NCBI RefSeq assembly: GCF_030435705.1 | Contig: NZ_CP129381.1 | Location: forward strand, 496,001 to 560,000 | Length of the DNA: 64,000 nucleotides | DNA from: Rhizobium sp. SSA_523 | Lineage (GTDB): Bacteria > Pseudomonadota > Alphaproteobacteria > Rhizobiales > Rhizobiaceae | Reading direction: 5' to 3' | Shown here: positions 24,077-51,741 of the stretch, piece by piece | Numbering within the stretch: position 1 is the stretch's first letter | How the letters are laid out: each line of letters starts with the position of its first letter | The notes under the pieces: model-generated | The model's input: the letters and a program-made list of their open reading frames with translations, nothing else | The model's database searches: none | What the model was told of the DNA's origin: nothing | Position numbers and translations under genes: made by a program

Positions 24077-24191
24077 ACCTGAACGATGAGATGCCGGCCT
24101 TGTGGTGCCCGACTGAACAGTCGGACCGCAGGTCTGCAACAGGTCGCGTCGCCGGCGCGGCCTCTCCCACACGGATCGATCGGATTTGGAC

Positions 24192-27484: not shown

Positions 27485-27506
27485 CCAACCGAGGTTCAAC
27501 GCATTC

Positions 27507-28420: not shown

Positions 28421-29551
28421 CTATTTGACGAAAAGCTGCCGCTTGAAATTCGTCAGCCGTTCGAACCCCGTTTGCGTGATTGCAATGGTTTCCGACATGC
28501 CGAAGCCGCGGGCCAGGACATAGGTATGGAAAGTCTGCCCCGGCTCGAAGGTCCAGTCGCATCCCCTGGCGGCTTCGAGAGGTTCTCCGCCATTCGGCTG
28601 CAGCAGCAGGCCCACAGAATAGAAGGTCTTGTTGGTATAGGTCTCGCGCAGGCCGGCGGATAGAACGCCATCGCGATAAATGGCATCGGCCTCGCCGGCG
28701 GATACGCCCGGCTTCACCGCGCGCAGCGCCTCGTCCTGAATGGCGATGAGCGACTCGACAACCCGATGATCATCGTCGTGGACCGGGCCGATGCGGATTG
28801 GCCGCATGAACCTTGCGTGATAATGCCGGACATTCGGCGTGGTCTCGATCTGCACGATATCGCCCGGCTCCAGGATCCTGTCACTGTAGCCGCCGTGCAG
28901 ATGGAAGGCGCGCTCCCCAGAGGACATGACACCCGGGCCCGGAAGGTCGCTTCCGGCGCGGATCATGGCCGCGCAGACTTCGGCGGCCATTTCGCGCTCC
29001 GAGACGCCGGCGGCTGCCGTATCGATGGCGGCCTGCATGCCCGCTTCCGCGGCCTTGGCCGCGCGTCTCTGATAGGCGATTTCCGCCGGCGATTTGATCA
29101 GCCGCATGCGCGGCGTCAGATCGCTTTCATCCTGCCATTCAATGCCAGGAAGCGCCGTCTTCAGATAATCGTAGCGGCCCGCCGAGAGCGGCCAGGCAGA
29201 AAGCTCGATACCCACGCGCGCATGCCGGCCGAGCCGGCTTGCGATCGCATCGGCGGCCAGTTTCATCCGGTCATCGCTGTCGCTCCACATGACACGGTCG
29301 GGAAAGACGCAGGTGCTGTCGAGGTAATATTCCTCCACGTCGCGGCAGAACAGCGTCGGATCACCCTCCGCCGGAATGATGGCGAACTGCAATGTGCCGT
29401 AGGCGCGCGTGAAGTAGCCGGTGACCCAGGTCACGGTCTCGGGCAGGAAGGCGATCAGGCCGTCGAGCTGTCTGTCGCGCAGCGCTTGCTGAACGCGGGA
29501 GAGGCGAGCGAGATATTCCTCGCGATCAAACCAGTAGGCTGTCGTCACCAT
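28421..29551 (-). CDS. Creatinase-like M24-fold hydrolase
   Basis: A 376-residue protein with an N-terminal creatinase domain (LIAFLPETVTWVTGYFTRAYGT) and a C-terminal pita-bread fold. The positions that hold the metal ligands of true Xaa-Pro peptidases look different: the DxGxxxxxxxxD pair is replaced around IVQIETTPNVRHYHARFMR, and the HGIG histidine region reads FYSVGLLL. It therefore probably cleaves a C-N bond without metal, as creatinase and ectoine hydrolase do. It starts at the stop of the amidotransferase gene (TGATG), in one operon downstream of the 30303 operator. Confidence 0.8.
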   Translation of the reverse strand: MVTTAYWFDREEYLARLSRVQQALRDRQLDGLIAFLPETVTWVTGYFTRAYGTLQFAIIPAEGDPTLFCRDVEEYYLDSTCVFPDRVMWSDSDDRMKLAADAIASRLGRHARVGIELSAWPLSAGRYDYLKTALPGIEWQDESDLTPRMRLIKSPAEIAYQRRAAKAAEAGMQAAIDTAAAGVSEREMAAEVCAAMIRAGSDLPGPGVMSSGERAFHLHGGYSDRILEPGDIVQIETTPNVRHYHARFMRPIRIGPVHDDDHRVVESLIAIQDEALRAVKPGVSAGEADAIYRDGVLSAGLRETYTNKTFYSVGLLLQPNGGEPLEAARGCDWTFEPGQTFHTYVLARGFGMSETIAITQTGFERLTNFKRQLFVK

Positions 29552-30270
29552 CAGTGCATGTCCTTGCGATCGCCGTTCTGAACAAGTTCGGCAAAGCGTG
29601 TCAGCATGGTCTTTGCCTCGCCGGCTTCATGCGCCTCAGCCTTCAGGTGATCGATATCGGCGCCGTCGGCCTCCATGCGCTCGCGGTTTTCCTCGAACCA
29701 AGCAATGGCCTGTGCCTTGGTGACTTCCGGGTGACCCTGGATGCCCCAGACAGGACGGTCTCGATATCGCCAGATCTGGTTCGGGCAATCATCCGAAGAG
29801 GCCAATATCGTCATGTCGGCATGTCCGGCCCGGACTTCGTCATTGTGCCAGACAAACATATAGACGCTGTCCACCAGATCGCGTGCCAGCTGGTCGCTAC
29901 GCGCAGCCTCGGTGAGCGGCAGATGCTTGTAACCGATTTCGCAGCTGGTCCGCCGGAAGACCTGGTCGCGGCCGCAGAGCGCGGAGGCGAGGATCTGGCT
30001 GCCGAAGCAGATGCCGAGCATAGGAATGTCCAGCTCTGCCGCTTCCTGGATCAGCTCGTGCTCCTTCAGGATGAACGGGATATCCTCATAGGCGCCGTGC
30101 GGACTTCCGGAGAGGAATATGCCGTCATAGCCTTTCAGCGAAGCGGGAAACTGCCCGTCATAGGCCCAGTAACGATCCACATTGAGGCCCCAGGTTTCGA
30201 ACCTGTCATCCAGTTTGGCAACCGACTGAAACTTCCGCCCGTTGCCAAGATAAAGAAGGCGTCCTGCCAT
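29551..30270 (-). CDS. Class I glutamine amidotransferase-like protein
   Basis: A 239-residue stand-alone class I amidotransferase domain. The nucleophile cysteine is in MLGICFGSQILA near residue 92, and the His-Glu pair in GIQGHPEV near 184. The ATG at 30270 has a GGGGA ribosome binding site. There is no fused synthetase domain, so it could be a gamma-glutamyl hydrolase-like enzyme or the glutaminase half of an unidentified pair. It is first gene of a two-gene operon, divergent from pxpA across a GntR-type operator. Confidence 0.82.
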   Translation of the reverse strand: MAGRLLYLGNGRKFQSVAKLDDRFETWGLNVDRYWAYDGQFPASLKGYDGIFLSGSPHGAYEDIPFILKEHELIQEAAELDIPMLGICFGSQILASALCGRDQVFRRTSCEIGYKHLPLTEAARSDQLARDLVDSVYMFVWHNDEVRAGHADMTILASSDDCPNQIWRYRDRPVWGIQGHPEVTKAQAIAWFEENRERMEADGADIDHLKAEAHEAGEAKTMLTRFAELVQNGDRKDMH

Positions 30271-30302
30271 GATTATCCCCGCTTCACTAGTTTGCACACC
30301 GT

Positions 30303-30312
30303 TGGTATACCA
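30303..30312. promoter_or_regulatory. GntR/FCD-type operator between amidotransferase and pxpA
   Basis: TGGTATACCA is a perfect palindrome within the longer GTTGGTATACCATTGG. The same core lies in the regulator's own divergent promoter at 36014-36025. Its position 33 bases before the amidotransferase start and 83 bases before pxpA suggests joint control of both directions by the GntR protein at 35189-35848. Confidence 0.7.
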
Positions 30313-30394
30313 TTGGTCTTCAGCGTGCAACGGAGAATCTGTGACGGGCAGCCGACGGCCTGCTATTGGCAGAACAATCTTGTGAGGGAGCATC

Positions 30395-31177
30395 ATGCGG
30401 ATCGATCTCAATTCCGACCTCGGCGAAGGCTTCGGTCCCTGGAGCATGGGCGACGACGCCGCCATGCTCGACGTCGTGAGCACAGCCAATATCGCCTGCG
30501 GTTTCCACGCCGGAGATCCCGATACGATGCGCAGGACCCTGAAACTGGCAAAGGCGAGGGGCGTGGCGGTGGGCGCCCATCCGGGCTACCAGGATCTGAT
30601 CGGCTTTGGTCGCCGGCGTATCCCGGGACTGACGGAAACGGAGGTGGAATCGCTTGTGGCCTACCAGATCGGGGCGATGGCCGCCCTGTGTGCGCTTGAA
30701 GGTCATCCGATGACGCATGTGAAGACGCATGGCGCGCTCGGCAATGTCTGCGCCGACGATGACGCCATGGCGCTTGCGGTGGGGCGGGCCATCCGCGCCG
30801 TCGATCGCAACCTGGCATTCATGGTCATGCCGGGAACGGCCACAGCGCGCGCAGCCGACAGGCTCGGCCTGACGCCCATCAACGAGATCTATGCCGACCG
30901 TACCTATGCCGATACGTTCAACCTGTCGCCGCGAACCGAACCCGGCGCGGTCCTGCATGATGCGGATCTCGTTGTTGCGCGCGTCCTGACCATGGTGCGC
31001 GAAAACTGCCTCACCTCCACCAGCGGGCGGCGGCTTTCCGTGCCGATCGGATCGGTCTGCGTCCATGGCGATACGCCGGGCGCGGTGGCGATGGCTCGCC
31101 GCTTGCGGCAAGGGTTGGAGGCGTCCGGCTGGACAATCGGCTCGTCGGTCGTGCCCGGGCCCGAGCCGGGCCGGTGA
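30395..31177 (+). CDS. pxpA: 5-oxoprolinase subunit PxpA (LamB/YcsF family)
   Basis: A 260-residue protein opening MRIDLNSDLGEGFGPW, then IACGFHAGDPDTM near residue 32, VGAHPGYQD near 58 and HVKTHGAL near 108: the conserved stretches of the LamB/YcsF family. PxpA works with PxpB and PxpC to hydrolyse 5-oxoproline to glutamate with ATP. Here pxpA is convergent with pxpC and pxpB rather than in one operon with them, but all three are within 2.5 kb. Confidence 0.93.
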   Translation: MRIDLNSDLGEGFGPWSMGDDAAMLDVVSTANIACGFHAGDPDTMRRTLKLAKARGVAVGAHPGYQDLIGFGRRRIPGLTETEVESLVAYQIGAMAALCALEGHPMTHVKTHGALGNVCADDDAMALAVGRAIRAVDRNLAFMVMPGTATARAADRLGLTPINEIYADRTYADTFNLSPRTEPGAVLHDADLVVARVLTMVRENCLTSTSGRRLSVPIGSVCVHGDTPGAVAMARRLRQGLEASGWTIGSSVVPGPEPGR

Positions 31178-31190
31178 CACGGCCACCGCG

Positions 31191-32141
31191 TCACCCCGGA
31201 TCTCGCTCAATGGTATCGAGGACATCCGCCAGGCGATCTTGTGCATCCAGAAGAAGATCTTCGGCGGCATCGGCACTTATGCGCCGGAACCGGAATTTCT
31301 GTCCGTTGGGCATCTGCGCCAGGCGCAAGAGATCGGCCGAGGCAATGGTCGCAATCTTCGGATAGCCCCCGGTGGTCTGTCCGTCGGCCGTCAGTACGAT
31401 GGGTTTGCCGGAGCCGGGCACCTGGATGGATCCGGCGAGGGTCGCGTCCGATACGATGTCATGGCCCTTGAAGGCGCAGATCTGCGGTCCCTCCAAAACC
31501 ATGGCCATCCGGTCGCGCGCCGGTGTCGGGGAAAAGGGGCGGCTCAGCAGGCTGCTCCATGTCGATGCATCGAAATAATCGTCCTGTGGTCCGGCAATGA
31601 TGCGGATCGGCGCCTGGCTGCGAAGATACGGGCTGCCTAGTCGTTTCGGTGCCATATCCTTGCCGTGTCCGAGCGGAAGGAGGTCGCCTGCGGCCAGCAC
31701 GCGCCCGCCCAGCCCGCCGACGCCTGTGCGCAGATGGGTGGAGCGGCTGCCGAGCACGGGCTCGGTCACGATCCCTCCCGAGATTGCCAGATAGCCCCAG
31801 ACGGCGCCCTCAAGCGCGCCGACGGTCAGCGTCTCGCCGCGGCGCAGCACATGGCTTTCCCAACAGGTACGCGGTTGGCCGTCGATATCGATGGCACAGC
31901 GGCCTCCGGTCACGGCGAAGAGGCAATCCCGTTCGACCTTGAACACGCCGCCGACCAGCGCGAATTCCAGGCATGCGTCTGCCTCCCTATTGCCAACCAG
32001 CCGATTGGCGATCCTCTGGGAGTCGCGGTCAACAGGTCCGGATGGAGAGAGACCGAAGGATCGATAGCCGTGGCGTCCACCGTCCTGAATGGTTACCAGC
32101 GGGCCACAGCGCAGGATCGAGAGGCAATTTGCAGGCATCAT
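31191..32141 (-). CDS. pxpC: 5-oxoprolinase subunit PxpC (KipA, biotin-dependent carboxyltransferase family)
   Basis: A 316-residue protein with the family start CGPLVTIQDGGRHGYRSFGLSPSGPVDRDS and later SRSTHLRTGVGGLGGR. It pairs with PxpB as the KipAI complex, the catalytic partner of PxpA. The start at 32141 overlaps the pxpB stop by four bases (ATGA), so the two are co-translated. Confidence 0.93.
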   Translation of the reverse strand: MMPANCLSILRCGPLVTIQDGGRHGYRSFGLSPSGPVDRDSQRIANRLVGNREADACLEFALVGGVFKVERDCLFAVTGGRCAIDIDGQPRTCWESHVLRRGETLTVGALEGAVWGYLAISGGIVTEPVLGSRSTHLRTGVGGLGGRVLAAGDLLPLGHGKDMAPKRLGSPYLRSQAPIRIIAGPQDDYFDASTWSSLLSRPFSPTPARDRMAMVLEGPQICAFKGHDIVSDATLAGSIQVPGSGKPIVLTADGQTTGGYPKIATIASADLLRLAQMPNGQKFRFRRISADAAEDLLLDAQDRLADVLDTIERDPG

Positions 32142-32881
32142 GTGGCATCCCTGCCGGTCAGCGGCTCAAGCGTGAAATCGCTTGATCCGGCCGAGGCGTC
32201 CAGCGCGGCTGCCTCATCCGCCTCGATCGCGCGGAAGCGGATCCGGTCCCCGGCTTTCAGCAAGAACGGATCGCGCCGAAGCGGGTTGAAGAGCCTGTAG
32301 GGCGTGCGCCCGAGGAAGCGCCAGCCGCTGGGGCCGGGCACGGAATTGATGCTGGTCTGGCGGCCGCCAATGCCGATGGCGCCGGCCTCGATCCTCTGGC
32401 GCGGAACGGCCAGGCGCGGCGTGTGCAGTGTCTCGGCAAGACCGCCGAGATAGGCAAAGCCGGGCGCGAAGCCGATCATGTAGACACGATATTCCGCCGC
32501 GAGATGGAGATCGATGACCGCTTCCACGGAGAGCTGCTTCATCTCGGCAAGCTCCCGCAGGTCGGCCGCATGCGCGCCGCCATAATGAACCGGAAACGAG
32601 AACAGGCGACCGGGCGGTACGATGCCTGTCTCCTCCTGCTGAACGCGACGAAGGAGCTCGAGGCCGAGCGCGTTCCCGCGGATCTGCCGGGGATCGTAGA
32701 TGACGGTGAGGGAGCGATAGGTCGGGATCGTCTCGCAGGTGCCGGGTAAGGGAGCCTGGGCAAGCGATCGATCGAGGGCCAGAACCTGGCGGTTTGCCGC
32801 CTCGCTGACGGTATCGGAGAATTCGATTGCGAGGGCCTGGTCGCCGCTTCGGACGATGCGCGGATATATCGTCGTCGTCAC
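32138..32881 (-). CDS. pxpB: 5-oxoprolinase subunit PxpB (KipI family)
   Basis: A 247-residue protein carrying the diagnostic GFAPGFAYLGGL near residue 142, VPRQRIEAGAIGIGGRQTSI and GPSGWRFLGRTP near 190. The start is a GTG at 32881 with AGGA just upstream. It forms the PxpB-PxpC pair and lies 8 bases after a D-2-hydroxyacid dehydrogenase gene, in an operon that also includes an M20 amidohydrolase and the GntR regulator. Confidence 0.92.
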   Translation of the reverse strand: MTTTIYPRIVRSGDQALAIEFSDTVSEAANRQVLALDRSLAQAPLPGTCETIPTYRSLTVIYDPRQIRGNALGLELLRRVQQEETGIVPPGRLFSFPVHYGGAHAADLRELAEMKQLSVEAVIDLHLAAEYRVYMIGFAPGFAYLGGLAETLHTPRLAVPRQRIEAGAIGIGGRQTSINSVPGPSGWRFLGRTPYRLFNPLRRDPFLLKAGDRIRFRAIEADEAAALDASAGSSDFTLEPLTGRDAT

Positions 32882-32889
32882 GTCCTGAT

Positions 32890-33852
32890 CTAGTCCTTTC
32901 GCAGCGCGCCGGTCCGCTGCAATTGCGCCAGAACCTTGTCTGCCACGAGAAGCCCGGTCCGTTCCAGTGCCTCCTGCGTCGAGCCGCCAATATGCGGCGT
33001 CAGGATGAGGTTCGGGCAGGACAGCAGCGGATGGTCGCGGACGACAGGCTCGACGGCGAGAACGTCGAGCGCCGCACCGGCGATCACGCCGGCGGACAGC
33101 GCGTCGGCGAGCGCCGCCTCGTCCACAAGCGCGCCGCGCGCCGTATTGATGAGAAATCCGTCTGGCCCGAGCAAAGCGAGGCGGTGGCAATCGATCACCG
33201 GCAGCGTGTCGGGAATGCCGTGCAGCGACAGGATGTCGGACCAGCGGCACAGAGCGTCGATATCCGGCATGACGGTCAGTCCCGCCTGTTCCAGGCGATC
33301 CTTATCGGCGAAGCGGGAAAAGACGGCGACTTCCATGCCGATCGCCTGGGCGATTTGCGCGACGCGGCCGGATATATTGCCATAGCCGAGAAGCCCGAGC
33401 CGCCGCGCGGACAGCTCGACCGTTCGATGCTCCTGGCGAAAGCGGTCATTGCCACGGCGCGCCGCCCCGTCGGCCGCGATCAACCGGCGCGCGCAGCCGA
33501 GCATCAGGGCGATCGTCAGTTCTGCAACCGATTGGGCATTGGCGCCAGGCGTATTGACCAGCGCGATCTCGCGCTGTGCCAGCAATGGCTTGTCGACTTT
33601 CTCCGTGCCGGTCCCGTGGACGCCGACGACCGACAGATGTGGCGCGGCCTCGATCTCGCGGCCGGACAATCCATGATTTCGGGTGATCACGGCGCGAGCG
33701 AAGGCGAGGTGCGGGCGCAGCGTCTCGAAAGCCGTGTCCCTCGCGACATGGACGCGAAGACCGGCCTCGATCAGACGCGCGACGGCAACGTCCGCAATCG
33801 GCTGGATGATCAGGCAGTCACAGGGCTGATCCGTCATGAGATGCGGTTTCAC
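32890..33852 (-). CDS. D-2-hydroxyacid dehydrogenase family NAD-dependent oxidoreductase
   Basis: A 320-residue dehydrogenase. The Rossmann motif LGLLGYGNISGRVAQIAQAIG is near residue 150, the catalytic arginine region NTARGAL near 232, DVLAVEP near 258 and the proton-relay histidine in TPHIGGST near 285. A GTG start at 33852 overlaps the M20 stop (GTGA); an ATG at 33837 is an alternative. It reduces or oxidises a 2-keto/2-hydroxy acid, presumably an intermediate of the compound degraded by this cluster. Confidence 0.85.
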   Translation of the reverse strand: MKPHLMTDQPCDCLIIQPIADVAVARLIEAGLRVHVARDTAFETLRPHLAFARAVITRNHGLSGREIEAAPHLSVVGVHGTGTEKVDKPLLAQREIALVNTPGANAQSVAELTIALMLGCARRLIAADGAARRGNDRFRQEHRTVELSARRLGLLGYGNISGRVAQIAQAIGMEVAVFSRFADKDRLEQAGLTVMPDIDALCRWSDILSLHGIPDTLPVIDCHRLALLGPDGFLINTARGALVDEAALADALSAGVIAGAALDVLAVEPVVRDHPLLSCPNLILTPHIGGSTQEALERTGLLVADKVLAQLQRTGALRKD

Positions 33853-35192
33853 CCTCTGTCCGGAGGATCGAGGCAGAGGGCGGAAGCGAGCCTGGCGGCA
33901 TCGGCGAAATCCGACATATCCATATGCTCCTGCGGATTATGACTGCCATGGGCATTGCGAATGAAGATCATGCCGGTCGCGACGCCTTTGCCGGCGAAGA
34001 CGGCAGCGTCATGGCCTGCGCCGCAGGCCATCAACTGCGTGGGAATGCCAAGCCGCTCCGCATGCTCCGCCAGCGCCTGAACGAGACGAAGATCCATCTT
34101 TGCCGCTGTGCTCCCAGTCAGGCGGCCAAGCTCGAACCGAACCCGGTGATCGGCCTCGATGCGACGCACGGACCGGTCCAGGATGTCCTGCATCTGATCG
34201 AGCGTTTCCCGCTCCTGACTGCGAATGTCGACGGAAAAGTTCAGCCGTCCGGCAATCTTGCTGAACGCCGCCTCGGCGGGGTCGGTGGAGAATTGGCCGA
34301 AGGTGACGACGAGATCCTGTCCTTCCGCCTCCAGCCTGCTCCAGTGCTCGTCGAGATCGCTCACCAGGACGGCAGCGGCCCGCACGCAATCCTGCCGATA
34401 TTCACGCGGTGTTGCGCCCGAATGCGCATAAACGCCGAGGCACCGCGCCTCGCGATAACGGAACGAGCCGCGAATGCCGGTGACGATGCCGACTGGAAGC
34501 CCCCTTTCGATGAGGACCGGCCCCTGCTCGATGTGCGGTTCCAGGAAAAGCGCGATGCGGTCAGGATCAAGAAAGGCTTTGCCTGCCCGCAAGGCGGCCG
34601 TGTCACCGCCCGCCGCATCGATGGCCGCACCAAGCGAGACCTGATCGGAGGAGCGCTTGACGTGATCCAGTTCATCGGCGCCGAGCAGGCCGAAGGCGCC
34701 GCGGCTGCCGATATAGGAGGCGCCGAACCATGTGCTTTCTTCCGCTCGTATCACCATGACCGTCACATCGCGCAGCGGGCGAATGCCGGCCTTCACATAG
34801 CCTGCGACGACTGCAAGGCCCAGCAATACGCCTGCCGCGCCATCGAAATTTCCCCCGAGTGGCACTGAATCGATATGCGATCCGATGATCACCCCAGGCC
34901 CTTCCTCGCGGCCCTTCATGGTGAGGTAAAGATTGCAGGCCATGTCCATGGCAATGTCGAGGCCGAGCTTCTTGGCCTCGCGCCGCACCATGTCATGGGC
35001 GATCTGCTCTCCCAGACCGTAAGATGCCCGGGTAATGCCGCGATCTGTGCCAGTGCGCTGCCGCAATTCGGCGAACAGCCGTTCCGCAAGGGCGATGTCT
35101 GCCGGGGCTGGATCTGCGGCGGCAGGGTTTGCCGAAGCGGCCTCTGTCGAGGGAGCCTGATGCCCACGCATGCTTTTCGTTGCCATGCTCAT
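33849..35192 (-). CDS. M20-family N-carbamoylase/allantoate-amidohydrolase-type enzyme
   Basis: A 447-residue binuclear-metal amidohydrolase. IGSHIDSVPLGGNFDGAAGVL near residue 98-118 and IRAEESTWFGASYIGSRG near 150 are the signatures of the hydantoinase/carbamoylase branch of M20. Later stretches include EPHIEQGPVLIERGLPVGIVTGIRG and CGAGHDAAVFA. Members remove a carbamoyl or ureido group from N-carbamoyl amino acids, allantoate or ureidoglycine-type compounds. Its start overlaps the GntR stop by four bases, tying it to that regulator. Confidence 0.88.
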   Translation of the reverse strand: MSMATKSMRGHQAPSTEAASANPAAADPAPADIALAERLFAELRQRTGTDRGITRASYGLGEQIAHDMVRREAKKLGLDIAMDMACNLYLTMKGREEGPGVIIGSHIDSVPLGGNFDGAAGVLLGLAVVAGYVKAGIRPLRDVTVMVIRAEESTWFGASYIGSRGAFGLLGADELDHVKRSSDQVSLGAAIDAAGGDTAALRAGKAFLDPDRIALFLEPHIEQGPVLIERGLPVGIVTGIRGSFRYREARCLGVYAHSGATPREYRQDCVRAAAVLVSDLDEHWSRLEAEGQDLVVTFGQFSTDPAEAAFSKIAGRLNFSVDIRSQERETLDQMQDILDRSVRRIEADHRVRFELGRLTGSTAAKMDLRLVQALAEHAERLGIPTQLMACGAGHDAAVFAGKGVATGMIFIRNAHGSHNPQEHMDMSDFADAARLASALCLDPPDRG

Positions 35193-35848
35193 GCGCGCGT
35201 CAGCCTGCGGATGATGCTTTCGCGTACATTGTCGATATGTTGCCGCATCAGCTCGGCCGCCTCGTCCGACCGGCCGGTCCGCAGGGCCTCGACGATCGCC
35301 AAATGCTCCCGGCAGGTTGCCTCCTGCCGCTCCGGGACACTTCGAAGGTCGAAGATCTGTGTCTGACGGCGCAGGGTCCGGATGATCTGCGCCAATTGCG
35401 GATTGCCCGCCGCATCGCCGATGCCGTCATGCAGCTGGTCGTCGACGCCGCGCACGAGGCTGCGCTCGGGCTTGCGATCCCCGCTTCGGGCAAACTCGAT
35501 CAGGCTGTTCAGGTCCTGCGTCAGCCGGTCCAGAAGGTCTGGCGGCATGCGTCCGGCCGCAAGCCTTGCAGCTTCCGGCTCGAGCAGCTGGCGGATCTGC
35601 AGCGCATCCATGTAATCCTCGATCCGCATCTGCTTGACCTGCAGGCCGCGACTTCCCTGGCGGATGAGCAGGCCTTCCCCTTCGAGCATCAGCAGAGCAT
35701 CGCGGATCGGCGTCCGCGACATGCTCAAGGTTTCGGCGATGCGCCGCTCGGTGATCATCGCGCCAGGAGAGGCCTGTCCGGAAAGGATCAGGTTCAGGAT
35801 CTGCTCGTAGGCCTGCAGCGCCAGCCGCTTGTCGGTCTCAATCAGCAT
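35189..35848 (-). CDS. GntR/FCD-family transcriptional regulator
   Basis: A 219-residue regulator: a winged helix near residues 10-75 (ITERRIAETLSMSRTPIRDALLMLEGEGLL) and a helical FCD sensor domain with the usual DxxxH-type metal histidines (DQLHD, EHLAIVEAL). The ATG at 35848 follows GGAAC; a longer frame up to 35908 has no clear binding site. It heads the operon M20-dehydrogenase-pxpB-pxpC and is divergent from the M24-Dpp operon. The two TTGGTATACC palindromes at 30303 and 36014 are its probable operators. Confidence 0.9.
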   Translation of the reverse strand: MLIETDKRLALQAYEQILNLILSGQASPGAMITERRIAETLSMSRTPIRDALLMLEGEGLLIRQGSRGLQVKQMRIEDYMDALQIRQLLEPEAARLAAGRMPPDLLDRLTQDLNSLIEFARSGDRKPERSLVRGVDDQLHDGIGDAAGNPQLAQIIRTLRRQTQIFDLRSVPERQEATCREHLAIVEALRTGRSDEAAELMRQHIDNVRESIIRRLTRA

Positions 35849-36006
35849 AATAGTTCCGTTTTCCCTCCCGGTCTGGCGTCGCCGGCGGACAGAGTCGTTT
35901 GGTGCCACATGAGGCGCCGGTTGTCATCACAATGCGCATACCCGCGATGGTGCAGGGGCGTTGCAGGCATCGGACGAAGCATCACGAAATATTTGTATTC
36001 CGCTGG

Positions 36007-36035
36007 TTGACGGTTGGTATACCAATCCGTAGGGT
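36007..36035 (+). promoter_or_regulatory. Promoter of the M24-Dpp importer operon
   Basis: TTGACG (36007-36012) and TAGGGT (36030-36035) are 17 bases apart, and the TTGGTATACCAA palindrome fills the spacer. Transcription would start near 36042, about 40 bases before the first gene. Confidence 0.55.
36014..36025. promoter_or_regulatory. GntR/FCD-type operator in the divergent gntR/M24 promoter
   Basis: TTGGTATACCAA is a perfect 12-base palindrome, extended by flanking ACGG and CCGT arms. It overlaps the predicted plus-strand promoter spacer and shares its core with the 30303 site. Repression of the importer and autoregulation of gntR are the simplest reading. Confidence 0.72.
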
Positions 36036-36080
36036 GATGCAACACCAAGCTTGATCGCCACGACAGATGAGGACAAAGCA

Positions 36081-37259: not shown

Positions 37260-37274
37260 CAGGGCCCATAACCC

Positions 37275-37313
37275 GAACCTGGCGCATACAACAAAAAACC
37301 GCCACCCAGGTTC
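37275..37313 (+). repeat. Intercistronic inverted repeat before the Dpp-type binding protein
   Basis: GAACCTGG (37275-37282) and CCAGGTTC (37306-37313) are perfect 8-base arms around an A-rich 23-base loop. It lies between the M24 stop and the binding-protein start and may protect or limit that part of the mRNA. There is no T-run. Confidence 0.5.
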
Positions 37314-37344
37314 AAAGTCGAACCAGCCTTAGAGGGGCAACACA

Positions 37345-38910: not shown

Positions 38911-38914
38911 CGGG

Positions 38915-39865
38915 ATGAGCTGGGGCTATTTCATCCGCCGATTGTTCGCCGTCATTCTCGTGCTGGCAATCGTCACTTTCGCGGTCTTCGCCATTACGAC
39001 CATGCTGCCGGGCAATGCGGCGATCATGATCCTGGGGGAATATGCCACTCCGGATTCCATCGCTGCGCTCGAAAGGCAGTTGCGGCTGGATCAGCCCTGG
39101 CACGTCCAATATCTGACCTGGGTGACCGGGCTGTTGCACGGCGATTTCGGCACCTCGCTCAGATTGTCCCTGCCGGTGACGGAGGTCGTCGGCGAGGCTT
39201 TCCTCAATTCCGCAACACTTGCGGCGACAGCATTGGTCTCGGTGACTGTCATCGCCATCCCGCTTGGGGCGCTGGCCGCCATCAAGCGGGGAACGGCCTA
39301 TGATCTCCTTCTTGGCCTGTTCAGCTATATCGGCACCGCCCTGCCGGAATTCGTCACCGCGACGCTGCTTCTGGTGTTCCTGGCCGGACCGGACAATGGC
39401 CTGTTTCCCGCTGGCGGTTTTGTCGCCCCCTGGGAGAACCTGGCTGGCTTTGCCGCCCATGTCGCGCTGCCTGCCCTGACGCTTGGCCTGATCCTCATGG
39501 CGCATATCGCCCGTCAGGTCCGCTCCGAAATGTCGGAGGTCCTGGCCTCCGATTATATCCGCGCCGCGCGCCTCAAGGGCATCAGCGAAAGGCGGGTGAT
39601 CCGCCGGCACGCTCTGCCCAATTCGCTGGCGCCGGCGGTGGCCGTCATCTCGCTGGATATCGGCTATCTGCTGGGCGGCATCATCGTGGTGGAGGAAATC
39701 TTCGCCTGGCCGGGCCTTGGGCGATTGCTGATCTATGCGCTGGAAAATCGCGACCTGCCGGTCATCCAGGCCGTCACTCTGCTGCTCGCAGGCGTCTACG
39801 CGCTGTCCAATCTGTTGTCGGATATCGTGATCGCCATGCTCGACCCGAGGGTGCGCTATGCGTAA
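38915..39865 (+). CDS. Dpp-type ABC transporter permease (DppB-like)
   Basis: A 316-residue permease with the long first periplasmic loop of DppB proteins (TTMLPGNAAIMILGEYATPD, LRLDQPWHVQYLTWVTGLLHGDFGTS) and an EAA loop DYIRAARLKGISERRVIRRHALPN near residue 208. The ATG at 38915 is 4 bases after the binding-protein stop with GGGA before it. The gene overlaps the next permease by 8 bases. Confidence 0.92.
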   Translation: MSWGYFIRRLFAVILVLAIVTFAVFAITTMLPGNAAIMILGEYATPDSIAALERQLRLDQPWHVQYLTWVTGLLHGDFGTSLRLSLPVTEVVGEAFLNSATLAATALVSVTVIAIPLGALAAIKRGTAYDLLLGLFSYIGTALPEFVTATLLLVFLAGPDNGLFPAGGFVAPWENLAGFAAHVALPALTLGLILMAHIARQVRSEMSEVLASDYIRAARLKGISERRVIRRHALPNSLAPAVAVISLDIGYLLGGIIVVEEIFAWPGLGRLLIYALENRDLPVIQAVTLLLAGVYALSNLLSDIVIAMLDPRVRYA

Positions 39866-40676
39866 TGTCTTCACAACTCCCACCGCGGTCGTCGGCGCCG
39901 TTCTGCTGACGATCGTCTGCATCGCGGCGATCTTCGGCCCCTGGATCGCGCCTTACGACCCGCAGGCTTTCGACCCGCTCAACCGCCTGCAGGGTCCGTC
40001 CGCCGCCCACTGGTTCGGCACCGATCAGTTCGGCCGCGATCTTCTGTCCAGGGTCCTGAACGGCGCTCCGGCAACCGTCGCCTTCGGTGTCGGCGCAACC
40101 ATTCTGGGCGTAGGCATCGGCTCCGTCATCGGTGTCGTGGCGGGCGTGACCGGAGGCTGGGTGGATTCGACCATCATGCGGATCTTGGACGGCTTGCTGG
40201 CCGTGCCGGATCTGCTGTTCACCCTGCTGATCGTCACTATTCTCGGAGGCGGCATGGAACATGCCATGCTCGCCGTCGCAGTGGCCTTCGCGCCCGGAAT
40301 GGCCCGGATATCGAGAAGCGTCGTCCTTTCGGTGCGGACCCGCGATTATGTGCGTGCGGCCGTCGCACGCGGCGAATCCAGCCTCTACATCGTCGGCTGC
40401 GAAGTGCTTCCGAATGCATTGAGCCCCATCGTGGTGGAAGCGACCATCCGTGTCTCCTTTGCCATCATGATCGGCGCAACGCTCGGCTTCCTCGGGCTCG
40501 GAGCCCAGCCGCCGAGCACCGAATGGGGATTGATGGTGGCAGAGGCCCGGCAATTCATGTTCCGCAATCCCTGGTGCGTCGCCATTCCCGGCCTGTCCAT
40601 TGCCATGGCTGCGCTCGGCTTCAACCTCTTCGGCGACGCCCTCCGCGACAGCCTTGATCCGCGAAGGAGCCATTGA
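39858..40676 (+). CDS. Dpp-type ABC transporter permease (DppC-like)
   Basis: A 272-residue permease: PYDPQAFDPLNRLQGPSAAHWFGTDQFGRDLLSRVL is the diagnostic DppC N-terminal stretch, and the EAA-like loop DYVRAAVARGESSLYIVGCEVLPN is near residue 163. It overlaps the upstream permease by 8 bases and the ATPase by four, so all are translationally coupled. Confidence 0.92.
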   Translation: MRNVFTTPTAVVGAVLLTIVCIAAIFGPWIAPYDPQAFDPLNRLQGPSAAHWFGTDQFGRDLLSRVLNGAPATVAFGVGATILGVGIGSVIGVVAGVTGGWVDSTIMRILDGLLAVPDLLFTLLIVTILGGGMEHAMLAVAVAFAPGMARISRSVVLSVRTRDYVRAAVARGESSLYIVGCEVLPNALSPIVVEATIRVSFAIMIGATLGFLGLGAQPPSTEWGLMVAEARQFMFRNPWCVAIPGLSIAMAALGFNLFGDALRDSLDPRRSH

Positions 40677-42352
40677 TGACCATGCTCGCCCCCATAGAGA
40701 CGCGGTCGCTTTCGGATACGGCAGTGCCGGTTCTGTCTGTGCGCAATTACTCGCTTGGCTACCGAACGGCGCAGGGTCTTGTTCCGGCTCTGAAAGATAT
40801 CAATCTGACGATCGCCAAAGGTCAGACCATCGGCCTGGTGGGAGAATCCGGCTCCGGAAAATCGTCGCTTGCCTGGTCAATCATGCGCTATCTGCCGGAG
40901 AATGCGCAGGAGACAGGCGGCGCGATCCGCCTTTGCGGCGAAGAACTGCTCGATCATACACCCCGGCAGATGGCGGATCTGCGTGGCCGGCGGATGTCCA
41001 TGGTGTTCCAGGATCCGTCGACTGCGCTCAACCCGACGCTTCGCCTGGGCGAGCAGATTGCCGAAGTTCTGATCCGCCACCGCGGCCTGACGAAACAGCA
41101 GGCCTGGGCGGAGGCCGAGGCGGCGCTTGCGCGGACCGGCATAACCCGGCCGAAGGACATGCTGCAGCGCTTTCCGCATGAGGCGTCCGGCGGCGAAAAG
41201 CAGCGGGTGGTCATTGCGACCGCCTTTGCATGCGAGCCGGAACTCATCATCTTCGACGAGCCGACGACGGCGCTGGACATTCTGACGGCGCGCCAGATCC
41301 TGGATCTTTTCAACCGCTTGCGGGAAGAAACCGAAGTCTCGGCGCTTTATATTTCGCATGATCTCGGTCTCGTCGCGCGGGTAGTGGACGATGTGTCGGT
41401 GATCCACAAGGGTGTGATCGTGGAAACCGGCCCCGTGCGGCAGGTCTTTCGCAAGCCGACGGACCCTTATACGCGCCACCTCATAGGCGCCGTACCCAAT
41501 CCGGATCGCTGGATCGGCGTGACGCCGCCGGCCGAGCCGGAAAGCCTGGTGCGGCTGGAGAAGATATCGGTCCGCTACGACAGGCCCTCCTTCCTGCAGA
41601 AATTCCTGAAACGGGGGCAGGAAGATGCCTCTGCTCTCTGGGGCGCGCGCGATATCAGCTTCGATGTCCGCAAGGGCGAACTGCTCGGCATTGTCGGCGA
41701 GAGCGGATCGGGCAAATCGACCATTGCCAAGGTGCTTGCCGGCCTGCAGGATTTCGAGGGGACGCTCGATCTCGGCGAGCAACAGCTGACGGGCCGCCGG
41801 CAGATCGACAAGGCCTATCGCCGCAAGGTGCAGATCGTCTTCCAGCACCCGGATGCCTCCCTCAATCCCCGGCAGAAGATCGGCACGATCATCGCGCGCC
41901 CGCTCAAGCTTTACGGAATCGTTGAGAAGGACAGGATCAGGCAGCGCGTTGCCGAGCTGCTCGAAATGGTCCGGCTGCCCGCCGACTATGCGGGCCGCTT
42001 TCCGCACCAGCTCTCCGGCGGCGAGAAACAGCGCGTTGCCATTGCGCGGGCATTCGCGGCCGAACCATCCCTCGTCATCTGCGACGAGGTGACCGCGGCG
42101 CTGGATGTTTCCGTTCAGGCGGCGGTGGCCGAACTGCTGGTCAAGCTGCAGCACGACACGGGGACGGCCTGTGTCTTCATCACGCATGACCTGAACCTCA
42201 TCCGCCAGTTGGCGCACCGGATCGCCGTCATGCACCACGGCAGGCTGGTGGATTTCTGCGATCGTGACGAGGCCCGGTCGGAGGCGCGGGATGCCTATAC
42301 CAAGGCGCTGCTCGATGCCGTCCCCATCCACACCAGTGCAACCCCGGAATGA
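40673..42352 (+). CDS. Dpp-type ABC transporter ATPase with two fused nucleotide-binding domains
   Basis: A 559-residue protein that joins the DppD and DppF ATPases. Domain 1 has GESGSGKSS near residue 59, SGGEKQRVVIA near 172 and IIFDEPTTALD near 193. Domain 2 has GESGSGKST near 342, [14 protein letters not shown] near 448 and VICDEVTAALDVS near 470. In domain 2 the Walker B glutamate follows as DEVTAALD rather than DEPTSALD, a common variant. One protein supplies both ATPase halves of the importer. Confidence 0.92.
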   Translation: MMTMLAPIETRSLSDTAVPVLSVRNYSLGYRTAQGLVPALKDINLTIAKGQTIGLVGESGSGKSSLAWSIMRYLPENAQETGGAIRLCGEELLDHTPRQMADLRGRRMSMVFQDPSTALNPTLRLGEQIAEVLIRHRGLTKQQAWAEAEAALARTGITRPKDMLQRFPHEASGGEKQRVVIATAFACEPELIIFDEPTTALDILTARQILDLFNRLREETEVSALYISHDLGLVARVVDDVSVIHKGVIVETGPVRQVFRKPTDPYTRHLIGAVPNPDRWIGVTPPAEPESLVRLEKISVRYDRPSFLQKFLKRGQEDASALWGARDISFDVRKGELLGIVGESGSGKSTIAKVLAGLQDFEGTLDLGEQQLTGRRQIDKAYRRKVQIVFQHPDASLNPRQKIGTIIARPLKLYGIVEKDRIRQRVAELLEMVRLPADYAGRFPHQLSGGEKQRVAIARAFAAEPSLVICDEVTAALDVSVQAAVAELLVKLQHDTGTACVFITHDLNLIRQLAHRIAVMHHGRLVDFCDRDEARSEARDAYTKALLDAVPIHTSATPE

Positions 42353-42364
42353 ATGGAGGCTTTG

Positions 42365-43585
42365 ATGACAAAAGCGACTGAACTTGCCGCCGGCATAGAC
42401 CGCAAGGCCTGCCTCGATGTCCTTGCCGACATGGTGCGCCACAAGAGCTATTCCGAGACGCCGGGCGAGCGGGTTCTCGCCGAACATATGGCCGATGTCA
42501 TGCGCAAGCTCGGTCTCGAGGTCGAACTGCAGCCGGTCGTCGGCGAGCGCGTCAATGCCATTGGCATCTGGCGCGGCACTGGCGGCGGCAAGAGCCTGCT
42601 GTTCAACGGCCATCTCGACACCAATCCGGTCACGGAGGGATGGACGGTCGATCCTTGGGGCGGAATCGTGGACGAGGATTTCATCTACGGGATCGGCGTG
42701 TCGAATATGAAGGCCGGCGATGCGGCCTCGCTCTGTGCGGTCAAGACCCTGATCGATCGCGGCATCCGCCTGAAGGGCGATGTGGTGCTGACCTATGTGA
42801 TCGGCGAATTGCAGGGCGGTATCGGAACCTTGCAGGCGGTGCGCGCCGGAACAAGGGCGGATTACTTCATCAATTCGGAACCGTCCGACTTGCAGGCGAT
42901 CACCATGCATGCAGCGGCCTTCACGTTCATCATCGAGCTGGAAGGCATTACGCGGCATCTGTCGAAGCGGGAGGCGGCAGTCGACGCCATCCGGGCGGCC
43001 TGCGAGCTCATCCCGGAACTCAGCGAGATGACCTTTTCCGACGCGCCGAGCGCAGAGCATGCCAAGGTCAACCGTGTGCATGTGGGCGTCATTCACGGAG
43101 CGCTCGGACGGGACCTGCATGAGTGGCGCCCGCCGCAGGTGGCGGATTTCGTTCGGCTGAAAGGCTCCGGCCGCTATGGGCCGGGGCAGACACGGGATAA
43201 TGCGCTGAAGGACATGCAGAAGGTTCTGGACCGGCTGGCCGAGCGGCATCCCGGGTTGAAAGCACGGGTCTTTGCCGAGACGAAGGACGGCCAGCCGACA
43301 ATGCCGGCCTTCGAGGTCGCCAGGGATGCGCGTATCGTCAAGGCGCTGAACGCGGCCTATGAAGCGGTGCGTGGCGAGCCGCAACCGACCGGCGCCATTG
43401 CGCCGCCCGCCTATTTCGGCACGGATGCAGGCCATCTCTGGGCCGAAGGCGGGATGGAGGGCGTGGTCTGCGGTCCTGGCGGCCGATACAACACGATGCC
43501 GGACGAGCGCGTCGACATTGACGACTATCTCGACATGATCCGCATCTACCTCCTGACCATGACCGATATCTGCGAGTTTGCATGA
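42365..43585 (+). CDS. M20-family ArgE/DapE-type deacylase
   Basis: About 406 residues. FNGHLDTNPV near residue 79 carries the first metal ligands, ELQGGIGT near 145 the catalytic acidic region, and the lid domain follows. GGAGG lies 5 bases before the ATG at 42365, which I prefer over the ATG at 42353. It probably removes an acyl or similar group from the imported compound or a breakdown product; the M24 gene behind it starts inside its stop codon (ATGA). Substrate unknown. Confidence 0.86.
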   Translation: MTKATELAAGIDRKACLDVLADMVRHKSYSETPGERVLAEHMADVMRKLGLEVELQPVVGERVNAIGIWRGTGGGKSLLFNGHLDTNPVTEGWTVDPWGGIVDEDFIYGIGVSNMKAGDAASLCAVKTLIDRGIRLKGDVVLTYVIGELQGGIGTLQAVRAGTRADYFINSEPSDLQAITMHAAAFTFIIELEGITRHLSKREAAVDAIRAACELIPELSEMTFSDAPSAEHAKVNRVHVGVIHGALGRDLHEWRPPQVADFVRLKGSGRYGPGQTRDNALKDMQKVLDRLAERHPGLKARVFAETKDGQPTMPAFEVARDARIVKALNAAYEAVRGEPQPTGAIAPPAYFGTDAGHLWAEGGMEGVVCGPGGRYNTMPDERVDIDDYLDMIRIYLLTMTDICEFA

Positions 43586-44799
43586 CTTTCCCCTACGTTC
43601 CGCAGGAATTTGCAGCCCGCACGCCCGGCGGACGGGATGTGGCTCTGAAGTTCGCGCCCGAGGAGTTCGCCCGCCGCCTTGCCGCCACCCGCAAGCGCCT
43701 GCGCGAGCGCGGCCTCGACGCGCTGATCGTCTTCGCGCAGGAGAGCCATTATTGGCTGACCAGCTATGACACGGCCGGCTATGTCTTCTTCCAGGCCGGT
43801 CTCGTGCTGGCCGACGAGGACAGCGAGACCGTCCTTCTGACGCGGACGCCGGATCTGCGGCAGGCAAGCGTCGCCTCGCTCTACGATGACATCCGCGTCT
43901 GGCTGAACGCCGAACAGGCCAATCCGGCCGAGGACCTGCGGGCAATTCTCGCGGAAAAGGGACTTTCCGGCGGCAGGATCGGCATCGAATATGCGACTTA
44001 CGGCCTGACCGGTGCCAATGCCCGCCTCGTCGACAAGGCTCTGGAGGGATTTTGCCGGACCGAGGATGCGTCCGATATCGTGCGGACCGGGCGATTGGTG
44101 AAATCCGCAGCGGAACTGGAGCATGTCCGCGCAGCCGGCCGGCTGGCGGATGCCGCGGTAAGAGCTGCGATCGAGGCCACCCGACCGGGCATTCCCGACA
44201 CCGTGCTGAGCGGCGCAGCGCTGACGACCATGCTGGCGGGTGGCGGCGATATTCCTTCGGGCGGGCCGCTTGTAAATTCAGGCCCCCGCGCGCTTTACGG
44301 ACGCGGTATCGGTGGGCCGCGCCTGATCGAACCGCAGGATCAGATCCTCGTCGAACTTGCAGGTTCGCACTGCCGCTATCATGTGGTGGTCGAGCATACG
44401 CTGGTCACGGGCACGCCGGATCCGCGTCAGGTCGACATGCTCAATCTGGCGCGGGAGGCGCTGGAGCAGATCAAGGATGCCGCGCGAGCGGGACGCGAAC
44501 TCGGTACGCTGGACGATATTCACCGGGCGGTGCTGGATGGGGGAGGCTTTGCCAAGGCACGCTATGCCGCTTGCGGCTATGCGCTCGGCTGCACCTTCAA
44601 ACCCACCTGGATGGACGTGCCGCCGATGATCTATTCCGGAAACCCGCTGGTCATGCTTCCGGGAATGGTCTTCTTCGTGCACATCATGATCCCCGATGCC
44701 TCGACGGGGCTGACGGCAGGCGTGGGCCAGACCTTCGCCATCACGGAGGGGGCGCCGGAAGTCTTCAGCGACCTTCCGGTCGAACTCTACCGGTGCTAG
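43582..44799 (+). CDS. Creatinase-like M24-fold hydrolase, second in the importer operon
   Basis: A 405-residue paralogue of the protein at 36081-37259; shared landmarks are VFAQESHYWLTSYDTAGYVFFQAG, FNSGPRALYGRG-type VNSGPRALYGRGIGGPRLIEPQDQILVE, and TWMDVPPMIYSGNP. Metal-ligand positions of Xaa-Pro peptidases are again replaced (LVELAGSHCRYHVVVEHT; CGYALGCTF). Two similar enzymes in one operon suggest two related C-N bonds or a hetero-oligomer. The ATG at 43582 overlaps the M20 stop. Confidence 0.8.
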   Translation: MTFPYVPQEFAARTPGGRDVALKFAPEEFARRLAATRKRLRERGLDALIVFAQESHYWLTSYDTAGYVFFQAGLVLADEDSETVLLTRTPDLRQASVASLYDDIRVWLNAEQANPAEDLRAILAEKGLSGGRIGIEYATYGLTGANARLVDKALEGFCRTEDASDIVRTGRLVKSAAELEHVRAAGRLADAAVRAAIEATRPGIPDTVLSGAALTTMLAGGGDIPSGGPLVNSGPRALYGRGIGGPRLIEPQDQILVELAGSHCRYHVVVEHTLVTGTPDPRQVDMLNLAREALEQIKDAARAGRELGTLDDIHRAVLDGGGFAKARYAACGYALGCTFKPTWMDVPPMIYSGNPLVMLPGMVFFVHIMIPDASTGLTAGVGQTFAITEGAPEVFSDLPVELYRC

Positions 44800-44800
44800 G

Positions 44801-44847
44801 GCGCCGCAGTCGCCTCCTTCGACAGGAGAACGGCGCAGTGGCGGCGC
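44801..44847 (+). repeat. Nested intercistronic stem-loop before the DapA-like gene
   Basis: Outer arms GCGCCGC (44801-44807) and GCGGCGC (44841-44847), middle arms CGCC/GGCG (44811-44814 with 44832-44835) and an inner CTCCT/AGGAG can stack into one long RNA hairpin directly after the M24 stop codon. No T-run follows. The rest of the 44848-44984 gap shows nothing but an AAAGG ribosome binding site for the next gene. Confidence 0.5.
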
Positions 44848-44984
44848 GCGAACATTCGGCTGTCCTTGAAAGCGCCGGCCGTTGCTATATGACGGTAGCC
44901 AAAGGGAAAACCGGTGAGGGACAGGCCACGCCCGGCATCAGGTTCCAGACACGATGATCGTCAATGTGACATGAAAGGTATGCC

Positions 44985-45911
44985 ATGACATTCAGCTCGC
45001 AATCGAAAGGCGTTTATGCCATCGCCACCACGCCTTTCCTGGATGATGGCTCGATCGATTTCGACTCCGTCGACCGGTTGACGGATTTCTACCAGGATAG
45101 CGGCTGCAGCGGCATCACCATTCTGGGCATCATGGGCGAGGCACCGAAGCTGGAGCCGGAGGAAAGCCGCGCCATCGTGAAACGCGTCGTCGCGCGTGCG
45201 CGGGTTCCGGTCATCGTCGGCGTTTCGGCGCCCGGTTTCGCAGCCATGCGTTCCCTGGCGCGCAGTTCCATGGATATGGGCGCGGCCGGTGTCATGATCG
45301 CGCCTCCGCCGGCATTGCGCACCGACGACCAGATCGTCGGCTATTTCGGCCAGGCGGTCGAGGCCGTGGGCGAGGATGTTCCGTGGGTGCTGCAGGATTA
45401 TCCGCTGACGCTGACGGTCGTGATGTCGCCGGGAGTGATTGCCAAGATCATGTCCAATCATCCGTCCTGCCTGATGCTGAAGCATGAAGACTGGCCGGGT
45501 CTGGAAAAGATTTCCAAGTTGAGGGCGCTGCAAAAGTCCGGCGAGCTGCGCGAATTCTCCATTCTCTGCGGCAATGGCGGCATGTTCCTCGATTTCGAGC
45601 CGGAACGCGGCGCCGACGGGGCGATGACGGGCTATGGCTTCCCGGACATGCTGAACGAACTCGTGCAGCTGTTTGCCGATGGCAAGCGCGATGAGGCGCA
45701 TGACCTGTTCGACGCGCACCTGCCGCTCATCCGCTACGAGCAGCAGCTCGGCGTGGGACTGGCTGTGCGCAAGCATGTTCTCAAGCGCCGCGGCATCATC
45801 ACCACCGATGCGCAGCGCCGTCCGGCCCAGATGCTGACCCCAACGGCCAAGGCTGAAGTGGATTATCTGCTGGCGAGAATGGCGAAGAAAGACAAGCGCG
45901 CGGCCTTCTGA
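44985..45911 (+). CDS. DapA-superfamily lyase/aldolase
   Basis: A 308-residue (beta/alpha)8-barrel of the dihydrodipicolinate synthase/N-acetylneuraminate lyase family. The Schiff-base Lys166 is in LMLKHEDW, the catalytic tyrosine in VLQDYPLT near residue 138, and GITILGIMGEAPKLEPEE replaces the usual GTTGE motif with GIMGE, suggesting a non-DapA substrate. Such enzymes make or split keto acids such as pyruvate or 2-oxoglutarate adducts. It closes the importer operon and is followed by an intrinsic terminator, so it likely produces a central metabolite from the degraded compound. Confidence 0.87.
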   Translation: MTFSSQSKGVYAIATTPFLDDGSIDFDSVDRLTDFYQDSGCSGITILGIMGEAPKLEPEESRAIVKRVVARARVPVIVGVSAPGFAAMRSLARSSMDMGAAGVMIAPPPALRTDDQIVGYFGQAVEAVGEDVPWVLQDYPLTLTVVMSPGVIAKIMSNHPSCLMLKHEDWPGLEKISKLRALQKSGELREFSILCGNGGMFLDFEPERGADGAMTGYGFPDMLNELVQLFADGKRDEAHDLFDAHLPLIRYEQQLGVGLAVRKHVLKRRGIITTDAQRRPAQMLTPTAKAEVDYLLARMAKKDKRAAF

Positions 45912-47604: not shown

Positions 47605-48380
<776 letters not shown>

Positions 48381-48384
<4 letters not shown>

Positions 48385-49073: not shown

Positions 49074-49086
49074 GATGTGGATCTCC

Positions 49087-49752: not shown

Positions 49753-49812
49753 CGGGAAATCTCTCCAAAGCGTGTGGAGCGGCGCCTGATCCTTGCCAGG
49801 CGCCGCGCTCCG

Positions 49813-50664: not shown

Positions 50665-50721
50665 GTCAATCTCCTCTGGTTGTGGTTCGCGGTCTGTTTT
50701 CAGATCTCGCTTTTTGCGGTT

Positions 50722-51738: not shown

Positions 51739-51741
51739 CGT

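Follow-up and report, generated by a model that had tools for sequence, protein, structure and literature searches.

The window analysed here is a stretch of 64,000 nucleotides from Rhizobium sp. SSA_523 (contig NZ_CP129381.1, positions 496,001 to 560,000), in which positions 28421 to 45911 carry genes for the three subunits of 5-oxoprolinase (PxpA, PxpB, PxpC), three proteins of the M24 fold, two M20 enzymes, a stand-alone glutamine amidotransferase (GATase), a D-2-hydroxyacid dehydrogenase (HADH), a DapA-like lyase, a Dpp-type importer and a GntR/FCD regulator (Table 1). The gene identities come from Pfam and NCBIfam profile scans of the cluster proteins, and every gene named in an original prediction, which a model had made from the letters and their open reading frames, was found where it had been placed; the third M24 protein (M24b) was located upstream of the binding protein gene. 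The genes form four units: M24a-GATase on the minus strand, pxpA on the plus strand, GntR-M20carb-HADH-pxpB-pxpC on the minus strand and M24b-binding protein-DppB-DppC-DppDF-M20arg-M24c on the plus strand, with the DapA-like gene about 185 bases past M24c on the same strand. Inside each unit the frames mostly overlap or almost touch, the spacing between M24b and the binding protein gene being 85 bases. The GATase start was set at the ATG at 30268-30270 (239 amino acids), replacing a longer open reading frame, and for pxpB the probable start is the GTG whose last base is 32881. Within its own genome the nearest relative of M24b is M24c (49% identity).

Table 1. Features of the cluster, in window coordinates
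Feature	Position	Strand	Profile evidence or remark
M24a, creatinase/prolidase-fold, ectoine-hydrolase-type residues	28421..29551	-	PF00557 96 bits, PF01321
Stand-alone class-I glutamine amidotransferase (GATase), gamma-glutamyl peptidase-like	29551..30270	-	PF00117
Putative operator 1, TGGTATACCA	30303..30312		GATase-pxpA divergent gap
pxpA (LamB/YcsF), 5-oxoprolinase subunit	30395..31177	+	PF03746 312.7 bits
pxpC (CT_A_B)	31191..32141	-	PF02626 279.5 bits
pxpB (CT_C_D), probable GTG start	32138..32881	-	PF02682 219.3 bits
D-2-hydroxyacid dehydrogenase (HADH)	32890..33852	-	PF02826 159.8 bits, PF00389 65.5 bits
Carbamoylase-type M20 (M20carb; hydantoinase/carbamoylase family)	33849..35192	-	TIGR01879, NF009527
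GntR/FCD regulator, proposed repressor	35189..35908	-	PF00392, PF07729
Putative operator 2, TGGTATACCA	36015..36024		GntR-M24b gap, upstream of M24b
M24b, M24-fold, divergent active site	about 36087..37259	+	PF00557 94.6 bits; start 36087 or 36090
Binding protein (SBP_bac_5)	37345..38910	+	PF00496 292 bits
DppB-like permease	38837..39865	+	PF00528 134.6 bits; true start probably near 38915
DppC-like permease	39858..40676	+	PF00528 91.1 bits
Fused DppD-DppF ATPase	40673..42352	+	PF00005, two stretches
ArgE-type M20 (M20arg), nearest ArgE/DapE models	42353..43585	+	PF01546, PF07687
M24c	43582..44799	+	PF00557 89.2 bits
DapA-like lyase	44985..45911	+	PF00701 77.3 bits

Co-occurrence of these families in other genomes had been suggested as a check on the prediction, and it was borne out both in related loci and in genomes with a close M24c ortholog. 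Five M24b orthologs, used as queries against named genomes, led to 62 loci, in nearly all of which matches to the remaining cluster genes adjoin M24b (the count of M24b itself is uninformative, as it served as the selection gene). Among the 42 full loci, defined by more than 8 kb on either side of M24b and scored with per-gene identity thresholds set by hand, the 16-gene set is complete in 10 and at least 15 genes are found in 22. The binding protein and each Dpp gene occur in 40 of these loci, GATase and GntR in 38, M24a, M20carb and M24c in 37, pxpA in 30, pxpB and pxpC in 29, M20arg in 28, HADH in 27 and the DapA-like gene in 25, and the gene order varies among lineages. A locus whose M24 protein is only 44% identical (L107) holds no other cluster gene above the thresholds. 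A close M24c ortholog (70-73%) occurs in four of the order's 296 other genomes (its own being the 297th), and all four hold most of the set at one place in altered order; HADH is absent from the fetched stretch in three of them, pxpB and pxpC also in two of these three, and the fourth is without M20arg and the DapA-like gene.

The GATase family is sparse in species genomes: 2 of 385 genomes of the class and 1 of 398 of the phylum (own genome included) gave a match at 1e-40. Of 72,556 plasmid records, a single one matched at 1e-30. Metagenomes, in which the family is not rare, yielded 730 proteins at 1e-25 (120 of the 730 listed). Reduced versions of the cluster, consisting of GATase and M24a beside a different ATP-binding cassette (ABC) importer, were seen on a Roseomonas plasmid, in Acetobacter garciniae (L095) and in genome G600; the permease and ATPase of that importer match the type at 24186-27484 of the window, the binding proteins of L095 and G600 belong to SBP_bac_8, and G600 adds a DapA-like gene, L095 M24b and an M20arg-like gene. 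The distant loci L098-L100 have M24b, the binding protein, the Dpp genes, GATase and M20arg, and L099 also M24a. Among unmatched open reading frames of at least 120 amino acids, many of them spurious, no further gene recurred inside the cluster in three or more loci. Beside the DapA-like gene, a short-chain dehydrogenase gene is found in seven loci (L047, L050-L052, L054, L058, L069), and in three loci the cluster end has a RidA-like (Ribonuc_L-PSP) gene; of each, one member was confirmed by Pfam. On a plasmid of Terrarubrum flagellatum (L109) the cluster adjoins AtzE, AtzF, HpxZ and isochorismatase-family genes.

The second line of evidence is a short palindrome. The word TGGTATACCA and its extensions are the perfect palindromes (half-sites of 5-7 bases) that recur, in two or more loci per gap, both between GntR and M24b and between GATase and pxpA. 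The window has two exact copies, one per divergent promoter gap, and no third within one mismatch; dinucleotide shuffles of the window hold 0.22 copies on average, and 4 of 100 reach two. In the whole 5.48-Mb genome the word occurs at three places, compared with one for the reversed word, the third lying inside a 492-codon frame outside the cluster. Allowing one mismatch, 49 of the 52 GntR-M24b gaps contain it (window plus 51 loci; 0.6% of single-base shuffles do), as do 23 of the 26 GATase-pxpA gaps (window plus 25 loci; 0.4% of such shuffles). The 62 loci (1.12 Mb) contain 88 near-exact words: 80 stand upstream of a cluster gene at a distance of 250 bp or less, 6 fall within genes and 2 elsewhere, and by chance about 3.5 in total would be expected (mean of ten first-order Markov strings). 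The 52 loci that have the GntR gene (at least 38% identity) include 49 with an upstream site, the 10 that lack the gene none, some of the ten being short contigs; this 49/3/0/10 association gives a Fisher value of 2.7e-9, uncorrected for relatedness, and as the loci are related it overstates their independence. In nine reordered loci (L059, L060, L072, L074, L075, L090, L094, L101, L104) a second site stands beside the relocated pxpA, GATase or both. An additional exact TGGTATACCA was seen upstream of another M24-like gene in a Roseicyclus metagenome-assembled genome (L106, position 1231).

The site at 36015-36024 sits upstream of M24b in the 17 bases that separate TTGACG from TAGGGT, hexamers assigned by eye as -35 and -10 from their conservation between loci and our own reading; a scan for consensus promoters and terminators gave fewer matches than shuffles, and this pair was not among them. 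The regulator has both GntR and FCD domains, and the strong association of site with gene suggests that it may bind the putative palindrome. The shared putative operator in both divergent gaps supports one regulon, so that the earlier proposal of a single regulon around one GntR protein probably stands for the co-inherited set; the DapA-like gene is without an operator of its own. What is new here is this putative operator; a literature search for the word together with "GntR" gave no match.

The history of the cluster was followed with a PxpA tree of 62 sequences (the window, 33 cluster loci and, of 30 copies fetched from outside the cluster, 28). Two changes of the cluster label are required on this tree, and well supported branches force two, so most simply PxpA would have entered the cluster twice, the second time in Rhizobium lusitanum and Cohaesibacter. 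Arboricoccus pini (Geminicoccales) nests in a well supported set that otherwise comprises Rhizobiaceae and one unclassified member of Rhizobiales, and it takes the same place in a quick tree of M24b and the binding protein (one kind of support); its placement in both trees indicates transfer, and the cluster is probably a horizontally mobile unit. By the same trees the genome that carries the window would belong to the Rhizobiaceae. The genome has another pxpABC elsewhere (G000:C4:3256000-3272000, L121), alongside which a GntR-like gene and Dpp-type importer genes were noticed.

The residues of the proteins narrow down the possible chemistry. In M24a the DoeA columns His231, Glu248, His257 and Glu369 (numbered after the EutD of the window) are kept in 44 of 44 rows. 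M24b keeps Glu248 and has Arg at His231 and His at Glu369 in 61 of 61 rows; M24c (43 rows) likewise keeps Glu248, with Arg at His231 in all and Gln (41), His (1) or Arg (1) at Glu369. At three of the five columns that are presumably the metal ligands of prolidase, namely Asp, Asp and His, M24a, M24b and M24c have Glu; Arg, Lys, Val or Cys; and Tyr. Nothing is drawn from one more His column of DoeA, at which M24a shows a Tyr next to an alignment gap. All three proteins score under the cut-offs of the ectoine hydrolase models (TIGR02993 120-146 versus 613; NF038259 158-181 versus 575). The creatinase-like cutting of C-N bonds, which had been attributed to the M24 proteins together, is not simply transferable to M24b and M24c because of their changed columns; M24a alone keeps the columns of the ectoine-hydrolase type.

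The binding protein has YliB (1uqw) as its nearest solved chain and scores under the equivalog cut-offs of GsiB (189 versus 594), DppA (165 versus 1005) and NikA (155 versus 393). Its Arg373 stands at the column of DppA Arg355 in 54 of 55 rows (Lys once), and Met422 stands in 54 of 55 rows (Thr once) at the column of DppA Asp408, which we take to hold the free amine of dipeptides; the missing amine anchor suggests an N-blocked ligand. PxpA is above the subfamily cut-offs NF003814 (347.4 versus 226) and NF003816 (247.1 versus 213), PxpB above TIGR00370 (182.3 versus 145.55) and PxpC above TIGR00724 (274.2 versus 230.2). M20carb exceeds TIGR01879 (259.5 versus 204) and NF009527 (464.8 versus 461) and stays below the model of the N-carbamyl-L-glutamate amidohydrolase ErtE (NF058540, 267.8 versus 520), and M20arg is below the cut-off of its nearest models, ArgE/DapE (TIGR01910, 163.6 versus 217.6). 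GATase has both the Pfam domain and the Cys-His-Glu triad of a class-I glutamine amidotransferase, with the triad kept in all 43 rows; among solved chains, gamma-glutamyl peptidase 1 (9k7i, 7.8e-15, 58.5 bits) comes closest to it. The DapA-like protein is nearest to 3dz1 (8.1e-135) and has the expected Schiff-base Lys (KHED motif) in 28 of 28 rows, with Tyr (15) or Phe (13), uninterpreted, at the second position.

From the gene set and its co-inheritance, the distribution of the operator, the residue patterns and the tree positions we infer, with a probability of about 0.6, a dedicated mobile catabolic regulon, repressed by the GntR/FCD protein through TGGTATACCA and devoted to an N-blocked, carboxylate-bearing peptide-like conjugate. 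The repression, the inducer, the ligand and each reaction would be as follows. The repressor encoded in the cluster would bind TGGTATACCA in both divergent promoter gaps; at 36015-36024, between the -35 and -10 of the importer promoter, it would block the polymerase and shut the importer operon as well as the GntR-M20-HADH-pxpB-pxpC operon, and at 30303 it would shut GATase-M24a and pxpA, until the imported compound or an intermediate frees it from the DNA. The Dpp-type importer would bring in the conjugate, most likely based on glutamate, glutamine or 5-oxoproline. M24a may then cut a C-N bond in the manner of ectoine hydrolase, GATase may split a gamma-glutamyl or glutamine amide, the two M20 enzymes would take off acyl or carbamoyl groups, PxpABC would turn 5-oxoproline or a similar lactam into glutamate, and HADH together with the DapA-like lyase would handle the leftover hydroxy- or keto-acid part.

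Several observations weigh against this reading. The roles of the residues are presumptions of ours, as regards both the prolidase metal ligands and the catalytic columns of DoeA as well as DppA Asp408, and an amine could yet be bound by Asp427, which lies five residues past Met422 and is invariant (55 of 55 rows). PxpA is below three equivalog cut-offs (NF003815 248.1 versus 337, NF003813 247.6 versus 392, NF003812 213.5 versus 378) and PxpC below one (NF045499, 230.5 versus 500), and the kinship of GATase to gamma-glutamyl peptidase does not fix its substrate. The genes pxpA, pxpB, pxpC, HADH, the DapA-like gene and M20arg, each missing in 12 to 17 of the 42 full loci, may be optional. As to the operator, none of 14 M24c-DapA gaps has the word within one mismatch; three loci with the GntR gene lack a near-exact site and have, after a TTGA-type hexamer, a two-mismatch word that retains the core GGTATAC; a two-mismatch word near M24b also occurs in 4 of the 10 loci without the GntR gene, the core being absent from the three of these whose sequence context was viewed; at least six loci (L056, L058, L068, L081, L082, L102) have pxpA or GATase and no second site. 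In four further genomes, one of which has no exact word, two of the five sites lie outside the cluster, and the reversed control word was found nine times in the same genomes.

The main rivals disagree on the substrate, not on the existence of the unit. It is rather unlikely that the cluster serves the breakdown of a hydantoin or cyclic amidine, in which PxpABC or M24a would open the ring and the carbamoylase-type M20 would free the amino acid, as in creatinine or hydantoin degradation: M20carb exceeds a hydantoinase/carbamoylase cut-off, M24a keeps the ectoine-hydrolase columns and the Terrarubrum copy adjoins Atz/Hpx genes, but these neighbours were seen in that one record only, no cyclic-amidohydrolase domain was found among the scanned cluster proteins, and pxpA is missing in 12 and pxpB in 13 of the 42 full loci. 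Scavenging of glutathione or of gamma-glutamyl peptides or conjugates, with GATase as the gamma-glutamyl peptidase, an M20 as the dipeptidase, PxpABC clearing 5-oxoproline and a glutathione-type importer, is regarded as unlikely. Such a role would agree with the closest solved relative of GATase, with GsiB as the best-scoring model of the binding protein and YliB as its closest solved chain, and with two entries of PxpA into the cluster on the simplest reading; however, the binding protein is far under the GsiB cut-off, this role can do without the three M24 proteins, the carbamoylase-type M20, HADH and the DapA-like lyase, and gamma-glutamyl peptides have a free amine, while the presumed DppA-type anchor is missing in 55 of 55 rows (Asp427 might substitute).

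If the substrates were glutamine-based osmolytes, for instance N-acetylglutaminylglutamine amide or N-carbamoyl-glutamine amide, the M20 enzymes would act on the acetyl or carbamoyl group and GATase on the side-chain amide, and the N-terminal glutamine would cyclise to 5-oxoproline for PxpABC. An N-blocked dipeptide suits a Dpp-type importer without an amine anchor, no catabolic route for these compounds stood out among the literature matches listed, and the genome itself has a TIGR03104 amidotransferase (989 bits versus a cut-off of 570; none of 14 control genomes above it), which we take to belong to the synthesis of such an osmolyte, the osmolyte structures being likewise assumed. HADH and the DapA-like lyase would be left without a role, and the retained Arg373 would find no carboxylate to bind in such osmolytes; as a substrate class they are judged very unlikely. 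That unrelated catabolic operons lie together by chance or as loose neighbours, for which the optional nature of several genes could speak, is hardly credible and was rejected, since the clustering is kept across loci through rearrangement and transfer and the operators are shared and distributed with the cluster.

The preferred reading, a mobile GntR-controlled catabolic regulon, offers a bounded and testable unit, in which a single repressor, operator word and importer go with about ten enzyme genes and which apparently spreads as a block between bacterial orders, and its binding protein and repressor are two direct handles for finding the compound. M24b and M24c would widen the list of peptidase-fold proteins with roles beyond metal-dependent peptide cleavage. 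It can be imagined, though only as a tentative and doubtful extension, that soil and marine alphaproteobacteria have here an undescribed and widely transferred route for degrading some common natural product of the N-blocked glutamyl or pyroglutamyl kind, a glutamine-based osmolyte being one example, with M24b and M24c as a new class of the M24 fold and GATase as a free-standing amide hydrolase. No publication describing the gene set was found among the literature matches listed. As for the neighbours, an ABC importer (permease, ATPase) with an inositol monophosphatase-like gene lies at 24186-28307 (+) and recurs at about 77-79% DNA identity on rhizobial plasmids, the best 40 of 201 matches in the search of plasmids for near DNA covering this flanking block alone; a KdpD-type sensor kinase and a response regulator lie at 18379-21759 (+).

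Among known systems, the Gsi and Dpp importers share their binding protein and permease families with the cluster, whereas the cluster importer is below their equivalog cut-offs, has Met (once Thr) for the presumed amine-anchoring Asp of DppA and has fused ATPase subunits. Gamma-glutamyl peptidase 1, which we take to be a plant enzyme, is like GATase in its intact triad, but the kinship is distant (58.5 bits). An ectoine/hydroxyectoine locus lies at 47605-56446 (-), with nine proteins (EhuA, EhuB, EhuC, EhuD, EutB, EutC, EutD, EutE, EhuR) above NCBIfam cut-offs. The ectoine ehu/eut (doe) system resembles the cluster in having an importer, an M24-fold hydrolase and a deacylase, and M24a shares the DoeA His/Glu columns; it differs in the type of importer, in its MocR-like regulator EhuR and in a deacylase from another family. 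The flanks of 10 kb kept for the 62 loci are too short to reach ectoine genes even in the window, so the link was tested by a search for the ectoine deacetylase in the genomes of 25 of the loci: 19 gave no match at 1e-60, two only a 38% relative and four a match at 70-85%. A deacetylase of at least 70% identity is thus absent in 21 of the 25 carrier genomes and in the other four lies on a different contig, one whose length is not that of the contig with the cluster; a physical link of the two loci was rejected, as they are not adjacent in the carrier genomes checked. The parallel that had been drawn with the ectoine cluster next door holds at the level of gene families, and the vicinity itself is not shared by those genomes. 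Ectoine catabolism (PMC5924519) is the closest parallel for M24a.

The nearest described regulon found is the pxpTABC operon of Corynebacterium glutamicum, for which a divergent GntR-type repressor, PxpR, is reported (PMC13274462) that binds 5-oxoproline and has its site in the divergent gap; the authors state that, to their knowledge, the regulation of bacterial 5-oxoproline metabolism had previously been unstudied. A 5-oxoproline-binding GntR-type repressor of pxp genes was counted in favour of the GntR regulon proposed here, and PxpABC under a GntR-type repressor with a site in a divergent gap is common to both. According to that publication the Corynebacterium operon has four genes, a secondary transporter and free 5-oxoproline as its compound, whereas the cluster comprises a Dpp importer, three M24 proteins, two M20 enzymes, GATase, a dehydrogenase, a lyase and a second operator.

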